In this document: positions 5,601-61,108 of the stretch, piece after piece
Numbering within the stretch: position 1 is the first letter of the stretch
Layout: every line of letters starts with the position of its first letter
NCBI GenBank assembly: GCA_964035015.1
Contig: OZ035998.1
Span: 23,963,479-24,027,478 of the forward strand
Direction of reading: 5' to 3'
DNA length: 64,000 nucleotides
DNA from: Corallium rubrum
Taxonomy: Eukaryota; Cnidaria; Anthozoa; Scleralcyonacea; Coralliidae
Program-made: the position numbers and the translations under genes
The notes under the pieces: model-generated
Database searches by the model: none
Told to the model about the DNA's origin: nothing
What the model saw: only the letters and a program-made list of their open reading frames with translations

Positions 5601-8600
5601 GTTGACTGCCATAGTTGTAGTAATAAAATCGTACGTGTGACGTTAAACAAAGTAAAATAAGAAAATTGCCAAATGGCATGCATGCACATTTAAACTATGA
5701 AGGAAATTAGGGTTAAATGAAAACAGAAATTTTCCGCTAACAAAAATACTTTGGTCTGCTAGAAAATACTACCGAATTTTATAGTAAAAAGCGACTGCCA
5801 ATTCCGATACCAGAGCACCTATTCTTATTCGATATAGTCTGTATGTTTTCACTGGAATCGAATATGGCTGTAGCTTTCTACTATAAAATAAATTTAGTAT
5901 CTAACGGTACGGAAGTATTTTTGTTAGGAAAATTTCTCAGTTTTCTTTTTCGCTTTTCTTCCCAATGTTACTATACCCACTGTTAGAAAATACTAAATTT
6001 ACTTTATAGTAGAAAGCTACAGTCATGGTCGATTCCAGAATACCTAGTGAAAAACAAGACAGAGTATATAATATAACAGCAGGTGTTCTAGCATCAGAAC
6101 AATTTTGTAATGCTCTTTATCAATGATTTAAATCATGATAGTCTTTTTGTTTTGCATGCATTGTCATGGATAATTAATAAATTTTATTTTGAGGTGAGCG
6201 CCATGTATTTTATTTTCAATTCTTTGAAAATAAGAGCATTGAAAATAAAATACATGGTACTTACCTCAAAATAAAATTTATTAAATGCTCTTTATTTATA
6301 GAAACAAAACTTTACGCTTTATTTACTATTGTTACAATTCTGACTGTTAATACTATTATTTAATTTTTAATTGGTATTACAGGTAATGATCGCTCTCAAC
6401 CAAACGCTAGTGCTGCATGAAAAAATCAGACGAGGAGAAACAAAACTGACATATTCTACAAAAGATTTAATCTATCATTACAACTGTGGTGATCTCACCG
6501 ATGTACTGTTCACACATGATATGTCAAGTCTGGCAAATCTTGAAAACACGTCTCTTTCCAACAGTTTTGAAATAGAACAAGCACGGAGGTTTGAAGAATA
6601 TTTAAAAGAAGAACTGATTTATAAAAGAAACAGAAGAATGTCCAAGCGAATTGTCCAACTTATTCAAAGGGATCCCATGAAAAGTTTTTTCTTTGCTTTT
6701 GGAGCTGGTGTGTTACTTTTCATATATATTATTTTTATATATTGGTTTATATATTTTTGTATATTTATACATTATTGATTTTGCCCTATTCCTACTGAAG
6801 TTTTACTTAATTTTCTAGTGAAAATTAGTTAAATGGTCAACCAAACAACCAAACAACCAACCAACCAACCAACCAACCAACCAACCAACCAACCAACCAA
6901 CCAGCCAACCAACCAACCAACAGTCACATATAAACAAACAAACAAATAACAGAGGGACAGACAGACAGACAGACAGACAGACAGACAGACAGACAGACAG
7001 ACAGACAGACAGACAGACAGACAGACAGACAGACAGACAGACAGACAGACAGACAGACAGACAGACAGACAGACAGACAGACAGACAGACAGACAGACAG
7101 ACAGACAGACAGACAGAAAAGTAACAAAGTCTTGAAAATATGTCGTACATGTATACTATAAATAAGTAAGAACGGATTTTCTCTTTATCATGAATTTTAA
7201 ATTCTTTTAGATTCTCGTTTTTCAATTTTTTTCTTTTCTCTAAAGTGCTACTACAACAAAACTCTTGCATTCTATATTTTTTTTTGCAACCAGCAAAATA
7301 TACAATTTAATTTATCTAAATTCACAGAAATGGGAAGAAGGTTTTGTTTCTCTTAATGCTACTCCTGGTTCGTTTTTTAACTTACTGAACTTTTAGTTAT
7401 TTTACTGTATGTTGCAGGACATTTTCTTGGAAATGGAAGTATAATTGACATATTACAAAAACAAGGATACAACGTATCTCACGTACACCCTGATGCTTTC
7501 TTACCTAGGTAAGAACTTTTAACTATTTAGTATTATGTTATTATCACTGTACATGTACGCCAAATTTAACGGCTTCAAATCATTTCTAACACACTCGTCT
7601 TATATTTGATTAAAATATCCTGCGATTATGTGATTAAAATCTTGAAACTTAGGTATGGGTCAAGGAGAACGATAAAGAATAGTTGGAAAAGCAGACAAAG
7701 GAAAAGAAGAAGAAGAGGAAGAAGGAAACGTCACAGAAAACGAATGCAGAGATTGAAGATGAATATAGATAATCTGTGGAAGAGAGATCCACTTTGGAAA
7801 ACAAACATGTGGAACAGAGATACGTAAGTATATAGGCTCTAAAGATTATTTAAAGAGCTTTGTATGCTTTTAATTTCTTGAATGTCTGCATGGTGGCCAA
7901 TTATATATATATATATATATATATATATATATATATATATATATATATATATATATATATATATATATATTTAACAATTATTCACCGAAGTGGAGGTGAA
8001 TAGTGCTGGATATTCACCGAGCCGCTTCGGCGAGGTGAATATCCACACTATTCGCCGACACTGAGGTGAATAATTGTTTTAGCATATACCTCATAAATGA
8101 AATAACAAGTTTAACATTGTTAACTCATATTTTTCGGTATTTTATACAAGAACTAGCAACTTGGACACTTGGCGTACTCGATATTTGTCGACAAAACAGT
8201 TTCTTAATACAACTTTTGAATATATTAATGGCTAGAAAATTGTAAAGAAACATACCTGGGGACACTCTTCTACCTAATTTTGTTGACTTTTCTCGTTATT
8301 CTACTACATCACCCTTGTTTATCAACAAAATCTCCTGCCTCGGTAAACAAAGCAAAACTGGCCGCCATCTTGTTTTGCCCGCAGGTGAATAGTGCAGGAT
8401 ATCCCGAGCTAGAGGAGCCAATCAGATTGCGCGAAAAGCACTATTCACCTGCGAGGTATATGCTAAATATATATATATATATATATATATATATATATAT
8501 ATATATATATATATATATATATATATATATTATATATATATATATATATATATATATATATATATATATATATATATATATGTATAGGTTGAATACAAAC

Positions 8601-11600
8601 TTGGTTTTACCAAACGCGGGCCTCCAGTCGAAGGGTTCAAACGGATTCAACATTCTGCTCGTGATAATATTTTGTAGGACGAATAAAAGGTAAAAGAGAC
8701 ATGCAACTTCGTACTGTGCCATTAAATTTTATTAAACGTTTCGACCATTCGGTCTGCATCAGTTATTACAAAAATGCATGCTAAATTGGTTCCTTTTGTA
8801 CAAATTTTTATATATTTAACATATGAATGCAACTTAAGAGGTAAATGATAAGAATTCCTAAGAGGCATATTGAATTCGACGTTGTGATCTGAATTCTTGC
8901 CTTTTGTTGAAACCATCCGGATTGGGTATTTGTAATTGAGCAGCCCAATAAGCTTCTCTCGCTAATAATTTGTTATCAACACCTTCGTTATCTCTTATCA
9001 TTTCAATACATATAGAGCGTTTTCACTCACGTGATCTGTGGCCCATTGGGGTGGTGAAACAATACGAAATATTTGAATAAGAAAGAGCTAATTCCCATAC
9101 CGTACACCAATATGGCCGCCATTTCATTGTTTTGGTACACCAATATGGCCGCCGTGACGTAAGATGAAAACGCTCTATAACATTAAATTACTGAAGGTCA
9201 TGCGGTGTTTGGTTAACATGGATGGCCGTTACACATGATTTTTTCTTAGTTTTCATAGCGGACGTATGATTTCGAAATCTAACACTATAAATTGCGTAGA
9301 AGTAGGACCCACATATTGTCGCTACACTTGGTGCACGAAATGAGATAAACCACATTCCTAGAGGTACAGCTTATACTTTCCTTAATTTTGTAGCTCTGCC
9401 CAGTGGCAAAGCTTTTAAAACAATCCGATTCTAATAAAAAAAATTCTTGCATACATCGCATTTCCCTTTACATCTAAAACATCTTACCGGCACTTCAACT
9501 TGTGGGTTTTCTAATACCTAACTACGTTTAAGTTTGGACGGCGCCAAAATTTCTTTAAGGTTCTTGGTTCTTCTATAAGCCAGAATAATGGATTTAGCAG
9601 TAAAAAATTTTCTTAATCCTTGCGATTCTGAGAGGAGACCGAAATGCTTCTTAATAACTTTGGAGACATTGGGGAGTTTAGGGTTATAATCTAAAACTAA
9701 GGGATAGACCTTCCTCTTCTCCCTATAGTGGTGGGTTGAAGAATTTGTGTTCTATTAATTCCCAATGCTTTTTGAAACTGCTGATCTACCAGTCCTGAAT
9801 CATAGATTCACAAGTACTGTTTCTATTCAGAGAAAAGTTTTTCTTAAAATTTCTCCGATGAGCAGTTTTCTTTTAATCCTCAAAGCCACGCAAAATGGGA
9901 TGGCATTTTTGACGTGGCGGGGATGGGAACCACTATATAGGATGCAAATAAAGATGGCTGTCTGTGAGTTTAGCGTATACATCTGTAGAGACGAAACCAT
10001 CCTTCAAATGCAACGTACACGTAAGTTCTAAAACATGCAATTCAGATGTGGAATAAACTAACTCGAACTTGATAGTGGGATAAAGAGAATTAATATACTC
10101 TGTAAATTCAAGTAACTTTTCCATACCAAGGGTCCAAATATCGAGTATATCATCCCTGTATCTCCACCGAAAATTGGGTTTAATAGGGCCCTCCTTGGCT
10201 AAGAGATCTATCTCTCCCATCGCAAGATCTGCATAGCTGGGAGCATTTTTAGGCCCCATGGCAGTGCCATGAACTTGAATAAAATGATGGTCTAAAAACT
10301 GGCTGTTGTTGGAATTGAGGCAAATTTCGACCGCTTCAACAATGCACTCAGTCGAAGGAACGTTACAACTACGCTGTTCCAACACTTTCCTAACTTAGGA
10401 AATTCCCAAATTGTTTTCAATATTGGGGAACATGGCTACCACGTCCCAGGACACCAATACACCTATTCAAATCTTCTAGTTTATTAATCAAATTAGTGGT
10501 ATCCTTAACAAAAGATGGAATGGCTTTAAATAAAACTCAGTAAATGCCGAGAGTTTTTCTATGGCTGTAGCTACCATTACAGGAGGTAATAAGACGTAAT
10601 GGATTACCGTTTTTATGCGTCTTAACATTACCATGAGCTACTCCTGGTTTGCAATTAATTCCGAAATCCAATCAACTATGTCTGGAGTAATCTGATCAAC
10701 GGCTGCCCACTTCGTGCACCAATTTCTTACTTTATCTAAATGCTGAGTACTCGGATCATGTAAAGACTTATCATAATGTAGAGGATTATTTAACTGCTGG
10801 TACATTAAAATAACAAATCTGGAACCTTTATCTTGAACCCTAATTACTTTTGAACTTTGCTTTAAGCCCTGAGAGCTAACCTCTCTTCTATAGATAAATT
10901 ATTTTTCAGTTCTAACATTATTTACATTAAGTATATCTCTTCTTACAGCTAGAAAGAGTTCAACTTCGGGAAACTCGGCTTTAGGAGGATTCCAGTTGTT
11001 GTTGGATGGAATCTTGGGAAAATTCTGACTACTTGTGTTGCCCGTGTTGTTGTCTTTACCTTCAGAATGTACTGCAAGGCGAATTCTTCTCTCAAATTTC
11101 TCGATATCTTCCAGAACTTTTAGCCAATTGATGTCCTTGGGAGTCGGACAGAATGAAGGGTGCTTGGAAAGTAATTTTTGCTGTTCATCTTGTGAAGCTG
11201 TCGGTGGTCAGGTTAATAGGGCTTAGGTCAGGTATTCCAATTGTATTTTCTTGCTGAATAAAATTAATTTGGTTGGAGGAGGGTTGTCTATTCCTCATAC
11301 ACTTTTTAAATCTTCTATTACGGCGTTTCCGGCGAGCACAATGATCGAAATTTGTGTCCTCAATTAATTCTCTAGACTTAAGCAGTTTTTTCTTTTCAAT
11401 TCTTTTAAGTTTAATCTCAAGTAAATGCATAGGTCTCTTGACTTTATTCCAAATTTATTAGCATGCATTTTTGTAAAAACTGATGAAGACCGAATGGTCG
11501 AAACGTTTAATAAATTTTAATGGCACAGTATGAAGTTGCCTGTCTCTTACTTTTTATTCGTCCTATATGTAATATATCATACACGAGGAGGAGTGTTTCG

Positions 11601-60776: not shown

Positions 60777-61007
60777 TTGTGAAATTCATTACTAATTCAT
60801 GAGTTTTGCAGCCAATCTAATTTCAGAAATTACGTCACATGTTATCCCTGTAAACCCCATACAAACTAAAACCAATGATAATAATTAGTTACAACCACTA
60901 GTGGATGTATACTCTTCTGATACAACCACTAGTGCTTGTAACTAATTAGCAAATTAGCATCGCAATATCCCAAAGGGATTTTTACTATTCATTCATTTCA
61001 CAAGTTG

Positions 61008-61108
61008 TTTACAACACTCGCGTCCTTGTTGTATTGAATATACAATCACTCGCCTTCGGCTCGTGATTGTATATTCAATACAACACGGCCGCTCGTGTTG
61101 TAAACATT
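61008..61108. mobile_element. Hairpin element with CTCG motifs (copy 11)
   Basis: 101-bp palindrome starting GTTTACAACA. CTCG at 61017 faces CTCG at 61092, and CTCG at 61049 faces CTCG at 61060. The tip is CC-TTC-GG (CCGAAGG on the minus strand). Confidence 0.8.

Follow-up and report, generated by a model that had tools for sequence, protein, structure and literature searches.

Hairpin-ended mobile elements with tandem G.A mismatches in Corallium rubrum, one of them enclosing a CryptonA-like tyrosine recombinase gene

A 64-kb window of the Corallium rubrum genome (GenBank assembly GCA_964035015.1, contig OZ035998.1, positions 23,963,479 to 24,027,478 of the forward strand; G+C 37%) contains eleven long palindromes in which pairing of the arms is interrupted by CGAG facing CGAG. 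Here we find that these palindromes are ends of mobile elements and that one of the elements, element A (48774-50854), encloses a gene for a CryptonA-like tyrosine recombinase (YR). All results concern this one window of one genome, which is the whole stretch of DNA analysed, and positions are counted from its first base. Scans of the full 64 kb against Rfam and for tRNA genes gave no match and no tRNA.

The palindromes lie at 7974, 11589, 15256, 28431, 29117, 31158, 31640, 34505, 44203, 48778 and 61008, where a preliminary description had placed them, and when folded all eleven set CGAG opposite CGAG or TGAG. As described, the motif reads on the minus strand in four of them (31640, 34505, 44203 and 61008), and the tip of the 34505 palindrome is CGAG/TGAG. 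The claim that the motif sits at the tip of all eleven holds for the folds, while alignment of the arms finds CGAG/CGAG there in 9/11. The 44203 palindrome keeps its tip motif; part of the inner right arm is missing, and paired arms therefore no longer flank the tip. By comparison with the 29117 palindrome, this arm was apparently deleted between two CGAG direct repeats. Mid-stem copies, earlier put at seven or more palindromes, are found by alignment in eight, with three CGAG/CGAG oppositions per hairpin at 29.1 and 48.8 kb. On the CGAG strand, the tip loop is C(GNA)G in six palindromes, a one-base variant (C(AAA)G or T(GCA)G) in two, C(GCCA)G or C(GCTA)G in two and CTT in one; exact GCGAAGC is present in two tips. 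The GA of CGAG is known to pair in the sheared form, and DNA mini-hairpins with GNA loops are very stable.

Mismatch blocks were scored by aligning arm against arm without an energy model, with pairs required on both sides; blocks of any size adjoining gaps or edges were excluded (four in the eleven, one in controls). The eleven palindromes contain 25 clean two-base blocks, of which 21 are GA/GA (19 CGAG/CGAG, one CGAA/TGAG and one CGAC/GGAG) and four are others. The chance of GA/GA for a random double mismatch is about 1/144 if all types are taken as equal. The controls were ten other palindromes in the window, among them the left end of element E (described below); GA/GA made up 0/15 of their blocks (Fisher P of about 1e-7, a descriptive value because the class had been picked for CGAG). 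These data do not fit the suggestion that CGAG oppositions are simply no commoner than others, given 19/25 blocks against 0/15. Nor do the eleven derive from one recent sequence, since BLAST (E 0.01) leaves seven groups without mutual similarity: 29117, 44203, 48778 and 31158 together, the last weakly (E 0.001); 28431 with 31640; and 7974, 11589, 15256, 34505 and 61008 each alone. Long palindromes without GA/GA two-base blocks lie at 16434-16714, 5802-6099, 17392-17631 and 63250-63416.

No paper on CGAG-interrupted palindromes was among the top matches listed for open-access PubMed Central (PMC), a scope that leaves out Repbase Reports and subscription journals. Mini-hairpins of the form ACGAG-N-C(GNA)G-N-CGAGT occur in viral contigs (IMG/VR loci L001-L317), where they lack long arms. 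Among the matches listed, their inner pair is Watson-Crick at 57/95 distinct sites; the figure is 11/56 in a scrambled ACAGG..CAGGT control and, again among the matches listed, 34/119 for CCGAG..CGAGG.

We orient each element by its CGAG strand and refer to its left end (LE) and right end (RE). Element A, on the plus strand, begins with T^TTAAG (the caret marks the element boundary) and ends with TTTTATAA. Its LE palindrome (48776-48965) has three CGAG/CGAG oppositions and a GCA loop. The inner flank directly after it (48966-48978, TTATAAAATAACA) is the reverse complement of the RE end. The RE (50653-50854) is a tandem duplicate of a 95-bp unit, with CCAATCA 38 nt from each TTTTATAA end. A 31-nt stretch of the LE arm (48792-48822) recurs at the RE with 94% identity, and the 95-bp repeat also holds an inverted copy of the 14 nt adjoining the palindrome. 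Within this tandem duplication (50653-50842) the repeat boundary lies at GTTATTTTATAA, as if formed by recombination at the end itself.

The YR gene fills element A on the minus strand (49133-50617). It consists of a main open reading frame (ORF; 49133-50347), an apparent intron and a probable start at ATG 50617, assigned by resemblance to the related proteins P0020 and P0062; one in-frame TAG lies just upstream of the main ORF. The LE palindrome is 168 bp from the ORF, and 35 bp separate the RE repeat from the probable ATG, which would place the promoter in the RE unless transcription comes from beyond the element. Such an arrangement would link the gene to the end more closely than a fortuitous nested insertion would. 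The protein matches PF12012 (DUF3504; 3.8e-12) and, below the respective cut-offs, PF00589 (Phage_integrase; 6e-5) and PF25561 (QRICH1; 1.5e-3). It has 333 homologues, and among the 120 listed the clusters hold up to 220 member sequences, so the family is probably high-copy; the named relatives are anthozoan (Actinostola, Exaiptasia, Actinia, Montipora and Paramuricea). In 23 aligned sequences, including 22 homologues picked from the 333, H249, R252, H275 and Y284 are invariant, as are R122, R123 and R129, each a candidate for the box-A catalytic arginine. An AlphaFold model (mean predicted local distance difference test score 73.9; 263/404 residues at 70 or more) matches the folds of QRICH1, Cre, Xer, Tn1549 integrase and integron integrase at modest template-modelling scores of 0.25-0.39. 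A sequence search of the PDB gave no match, and searches of viral-contig and genome-contig collections found no homologous locus.

Element A thus has a YR with R-H-R-Y residues and DUF3504 similarity, as in Cryptons. The YR is also its sole candidate transposition enzyme: 48774-50854 contains no other ORF of at least 110 aa, and neither the ORF list nor the Pfam scan of the main ORF shows a reverse transcriptase/RNase H or methyltransferase domain there. The Pfam scan covered 16 of the 43 ORFs listed for the window, one of them in part. Six other ORFs in or near elements gave no transposase match; one ORF (43427-43804) had 14 weak matches, probably because of a histidine run.

Element B (29114-30366, plus strand) shares the layout of A despite a different arm sequence and has no YR match. 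Its LE palindrome (29117-29301) has three CGAG/CGAG oppositions; its RE (30286-30366), with CCAAT at 38 nt, contains a 30-nt copy of its own LE arm (96.7%). Element C1 (30470-31076, minus), a relative of the element at 31158, has a decayed hairpin and is split by element E (30733-31043, minus), which is nested within the LE palindrome of C1. E has a palindrome without CGAG (30923-31019) and an RE recognised by profile. The LE of element C (31156-31344, plus) comprises the 31158-31344 palindrome with a CGAG/CGAG tip; its own RE end is not preserved. Element F (31087-31716, minus) has its hairpin at 31640-31716, an imprecise LE outer end and an RE ending in GTTTCTACTAA, with CCAATCA 49 nt from the end and another TAA at 38.

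Element H (7971-8466, plus; palindrome 7974-8080) has a CGAG/CGAG tip and two further GA/GA blocks; its RE, GGTATATGCTAA, mirrors the inner flank and has CCAATCA at 49 nt. It lies within a (TA)n microsatellite, with (AT)n on both flanks. Element L (60777-61105, minus; palindrome 61006-61106) also has (TA)n on both sides, so that two elements (palindromes 7974 and 61008) are in or beside such microsatellites; its RE ends in TTTCACAA, with no forward CCAAT. Element I (34251-34671, minus; palindrome 34505-34664) has an approximate LE start and an RE ending in TATATTAA with CCAATCA at 37 nt. In element J (15251-15687, plus; palindrome 15256-15359) the inner flank is found inverted at 15646-15687, and there is no CCAAT. 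Element K (11578-12428, plus; palindrome 11589-11700) has an exact 24-nt mirror of its inner flank at 12385-12408, and its outer inverted ends (CATACACGAGGAGG and CCTCCGAGTGTATG) also set CGAG opposite CGAG. The remaining pieces are a palindrome homologous to that of F with two CGAG/CGAG (28431-28502, plus), the palindrome (44203-44369, minus) of element G, which shares homology with B over 490 bp, both without a convincing RE, an orphan right end D with CCAATCA 38 nt from TTTTATAA (33207-33287, minus), and a decayed relative of the 34505 palindrome (19655-19788, plus, in the strand of its CGAG orientation).

The best-preserved plan is T^TTAAS, palindrome, inner flank, body, CCAATCA, 37, 38 or 49 nt, and TAA^. 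The T^TTAAS end belongs to A, B, C, C1, E and H, or four of the eleven palindromes together with C1 and E. An RE was located for 8/11 palindromes; C (whose relative C1 has one), 28431 and 44203 lack their own. The distance from CCAAT to the end is 38 in A, B, C1 and D, 37 in E and I, and 49 in F and H, which takes in 5/11 palindromes along with C1, D and E. In all, 35 sites in the window read CCAATCA or CCAATGA, and 13 of them have a TAA ending at 37, 38 or 49 nt; nine of these are element REs and four are not. Over all distances from this motif, TAA is commonest at 38 (seven sites) and 49 (five). The REs of F, H and I had been found through inner-flank complementarity before the spacing was seen, so the spacing supports them independently. 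A profile built from four REs (A twice, B and D) recovered a fifth, that of E (E-value 6.5e-5; 0.002 with the 3' part alone). Its match to C1 is weak (0.15 or 0.63), with two unrelated weak matches nearby. A search of viral contigs with the RE pattern gave no match.

The extent of the moving unit is seen in E, the only element for which an empty site is available. When the flanks of E are set against C, which is uninterrupted, the left one matches up to TCTGTT and the right one from TCAG, and the two overlap by 1 bp. The inserted unit thus runs from the base of E's palindrome to the RE end and duplicates at most one base, and the palindrome belongs to it. Element H agrees, with its palindrome inside the unit inserted into (TA)n, and is consistent with a target duplication of 0. 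TAA is found near both ends of the elements, with no clean direct repeat. TTTA flanks many hairpin bases, and we considered it as a target-site duplication; the E and H insertions fit best if the Ts are element sequence, which leaves a duplication of 0-1 bp. A cut-and-paste transposon with terminal inverted repeats, or a miniature derivative of one, was also rejected: E has no duplication above 1 bp, and the left repeat of A, B, E and H lies inside the palindrome. K, unlike these four, has outer inverted ends.

The inner flank directly following each palindrome is the reverse complement of the element's own RE end, and the 3' arm is that of the LE. Palindrome 3' arm and inner flank together thus form the complement of the joined ends. 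For A, GTTATTTTATAA joined to AAGAAATA matches the complement of TATCTCTTTTATAAAATAAC at 19/20 positions, the leading TT of the LE being omitted. RE sequences vary by family (TTTTATAA, TTGTATAA, TTCTACTAA, TATGCTAA, TATATTAA and TTTCACAA), and the complementarity persists. When nine REs were matched against nine inner flanks, the own pair was the row maximum in 8/9; the exception, B, scored higher with the inner flanks of A and E, and A, B and E are nearly one sequence. We also compared the best inner-flank match within about 2 kb with the matches of 400 random 22-mers (mirror null). The resulting fractions were 0.015 for A, 0.0125 for F, 0.015 for H, 0.005 for I and 0/400 for K. For 28431 (0.04) and 44203 (0.11), the best matches fall where no other end sign exists.

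We folded the whole elements A, B, E, F, H, I, J, K and L. With DNA parameters, 10-15 of the last 15 nt paired in register beside the hairpin base in 7/9 (not B or J), and with RNA parameters in-register pairing again appeared in 7/9 (not E or J). We swapped REs in E, F, H, I, L and J, each receiving the other eight (A, B and K were left out). With DNA parameters, every swap left 0 nt paired except when E received the RE of A (12) or B (11). Shuffled REs gave no in-register fold in 30 trials each for H, I, L and E.

The elements are also polar. For A, B, C1, J and K, CGAG orientation played no part in locating the RE, which is always 3' on the CGAG strand; in F, H, I and L the RE was sought first on that side, with a search of the opposite side as control, and C is oriented by its LE alone. 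A mirror-null fraction of at most 0.015 was reached on the 3' side in 5/11 palindromes and on the opposite side only in H and L, both with (TA)n flanks, so the polarity is no artefact of the search. The CGAG strand is the more stable in 11/11 palindromes by RNA energies without G-U pairs (0.5 to 7.5 kcal/mol; ten controls, -5.7 to +2.4). Covariation in the arms was found, for which the preliminary description had proposed a check with the CGAG pairs held constant: 28431 and 31640 differ by seven compensatory changes (two broken) with the GA columns unchanged in 4/4, 29117 and 44203 by six (three broken, 27 not comparable), and 29117 and 48778 by 15.

Taken together, these data lead us to favour, with some reserve, a reading of the palindromes as the LEs of a family of YR-type DNA transposons, CryptonA-like and mostly non-autonomous, whose ends are brought together by a single-strand fold. 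We infer that the YR is the mover, that its substrate is single-stranded, that a circle is formed and that the GA pairs have a role. The CGAG strand, when single, would fold into the LE hairpin. Pairing of the RE would then extend the hairpin base, so that both element ends abut on one continuous complementary strand. The YR would bind this folded strand and join the ends, or reverse that step, yielding a circle that could be integrated later. The sheared CGAG/CGAG pairs and C(GNA)G loops may keep the CGAG-strand hairpin stacked. GA pairs could also give polarity to a nearly symmetric hairpin, setting it apart from the CTCG strand, as in integron attC. In full, this would be a eukaryotic YR transposon that is excised and has its ends joined on folded single-stranded DNA with a self-encoded splint and GA strand marks, an animal counterpart of attC; we put this forward tentatively. 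It is possible instead that recombination uses an ordinary double-stranded circle, with the palindrome merely a source of inverted sites, which would leave the anatomy as described. Recognition of the folded strand, as suggested earlier, would be consistent with the polarity, with the compensatory changes in the arms and with the splint between the ends. The proposed tie of the palindromes to a transposition enzyme is supported by their being element ends and by the YR gene in A.

Several observations weigh against the transposon reading. Only one element in the window holds a YR gene, with an in-frame stop, and the YR-hairpin link comes from this single copy. Element E has the plan without CGAG, so the motif is not required by the architecture as a whole. 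J, K and L lack the CCAAT spacing, TAA at 37, 38 or 49 nt is likewise found at 4 of the 26 CCAATCA/CCAATGA sites elsewhere, T^TTAAS is present at only 4/11 palindromes, and 3/11 lack their own RE. Judged by the mirror null, the matches of B, E, L, J (0.30) and C1 (0.11) do not stand out, and the best blind-search match of B's inner flank is not its RE. In-register folding is absent from J under either parameter set; B shows it with RNA parameters alone and E with DNA parameters alone. The 29117/48778 comparison includes 17 broken pairs, the decayed copy at 19655 shows two compensatory and ten broken changes against 34505 (29 not comparable), and intrastrand repair could be an alternative source of arm covariation. 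With DNA parameters the strand difference (+0.2 to -3.9; controls -1.6 to +3.0) is uninformative. Half-sites of a 9-6-9 YR type, considered as a general feature of the arms, are clear in only 3/11 and were rejected as such.

The main rival is that these are rolling-circle elements similar to Helitron2/Helentron, with the YR gene of A a passenger, which we regard as unlikely. Read from the other strand, the elements have a 5' terminal inverted repeat and a 3' subterminal inverted repeat followed by a hairpin, and they insert next to T or A without duplication; asymmetric inverted repeats, a 3' hairpin and no target-site duplication are all present, in the opposite reading direction. Excerpts of published accounts describe Helentrons and HINEs with sub-terminal inverted repeats, a 3' palindrome, T-rich targets and an unchanged target site (PMC4067079), and two Fusarium Helitron2 groups with 5'-end hairpins bearing C(GAA)G tips (PMC5148889). 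On the other hand, no Rep/helicase match was found in the 16 ORFs scanned of the 43 listed, A is occupied by the YR gene, which begins some 35 bp in from the RE, and the GNA loop is on the strand where the hairpin is 5'. In the excerpted account of mite HINEs, palindromes are 5-10 bp long and 8-35 bp from the end (PMC4067079), whereas here they are 72-190 nt and the element ends at the hairpin base.

It is improbable that the palindromes act as RNA, as hairpin double-stranded RNA that yields small RNAs, undergoes editing or signals processing, with CGAG serving an RNA-binding protein. The RNA stability of the CGAG strand in 11/11 would suit such a role, and the lack of an Rfam match means that no known family excludes it. 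Nevertheless, a YR mRNA of A reaching the palindrome would read the CTCG strand and carry CUCG, which argues against an mRNA role; the complementarity extends to the RE, distant from the hairpin; and the triloop tips, C(GNA)G, are of a kind known from DNA mini-hairpins rather than GNRA. Equally improbable is a mutational by-product, in which hairpin repair keeps the arms identical and sheared tandem G.A pairs escape mismatch repair: two-base mismatches are almost only GA/GA while 25 single-base mismatches are also present, and compensatory arm changes are many, yet turning a paired step into GA/GA needs two adjacent changes, ten other long palindromes in the window have no GA/GA, and the blocks recur at the tip in 9/11.

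Among known systems, IS200/IS605 and REP elements resemble the transposons proposed here in having polar end hairpins, guide pairing at cleavage sites, short specific targets and no duplication; they differ in their HUH transposase, bacterial hosts and short hairpins. The following comparisons draw on excerpts of the sources cited. CryptonA shares a YR-only DNA transposon plan in cnidarians, a DUF3504/QRICH1-related YR and non-autonomous derivatives (QRICH1 is itself Crypton-derived); the elements here differ from Cryptons as described there in that one end is a long palindrome, the inner flank mirrors the joined ends and the RE is CCAAT-spaced (PMC3212892). DIRS1-like retrotransposons have a YR, no duplication and an internal region complementary to the element's beginning and end, the proposed junction template (PMC3266345). 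Likewise, an internal region is complementary to both ends here (7/9 elements in folds); there is no reverse transcriptase, the region abuts the LE and forms a terminal hairpin, and tandem G.A pairs are present. Integron attC, a YR substrate, is a nearly symmetric hairpin whose strands are distinguished by stem interruptions, as proposed here; attC is bacterial, with extrahelical bases and an unpaired spacer (PMC2727003), in place of which these elements have CGAG/CGAG and a second end brought in by base pairing. Helitron2/Helentron and HINE elements share asymmetric inverted repeats, an end hairpin, a T-rich target, no duplication and, in some, GAA loops; they differ in Rep/helicase coding and in short hairpins set back from the end (PMC4067079, PMC5148889).

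End recognition in animal Cryptons has lacked an explanation, the survey of Kojima and Jurka (2011) having, in the excerpt cited, found no terminal repeats in them (PMC3212892). No paper on Crypton hairpin ends was among the top matches listed in the PMC search described above. The architecture here suggests how ends may be found and joined, and its defined ends allow direct tests of excision, circle formation and strand use. The same survey traces the conserved genes ZMYM2-4, QRICH1 and KCTD1 to animal Cryptons (PMC3212892). If the single-strand reading is true, attC-type folded-DNA recombination exists in animals, and DIRS-type end templating is common to a YR element without reverse transcriptase.

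Elsewhere in the window, 54322-60030 (plus) is an open ORF of 1902 codons whose first 526 codons match DUF1759; we take it to be probably a BEL/Pao retroelement. ORFs of the long interspersed nuclear element type lie at 39628-42224 (plus), the first with endonuclease and reverse transcriptase domains. A Dickkopf N-terminal cysteine-rich domain is encoded at 25355-25762 (minus), and 3186-3803 (plus) has a TraB/PrgY/gumN match that, we presume, resembles TIKI.

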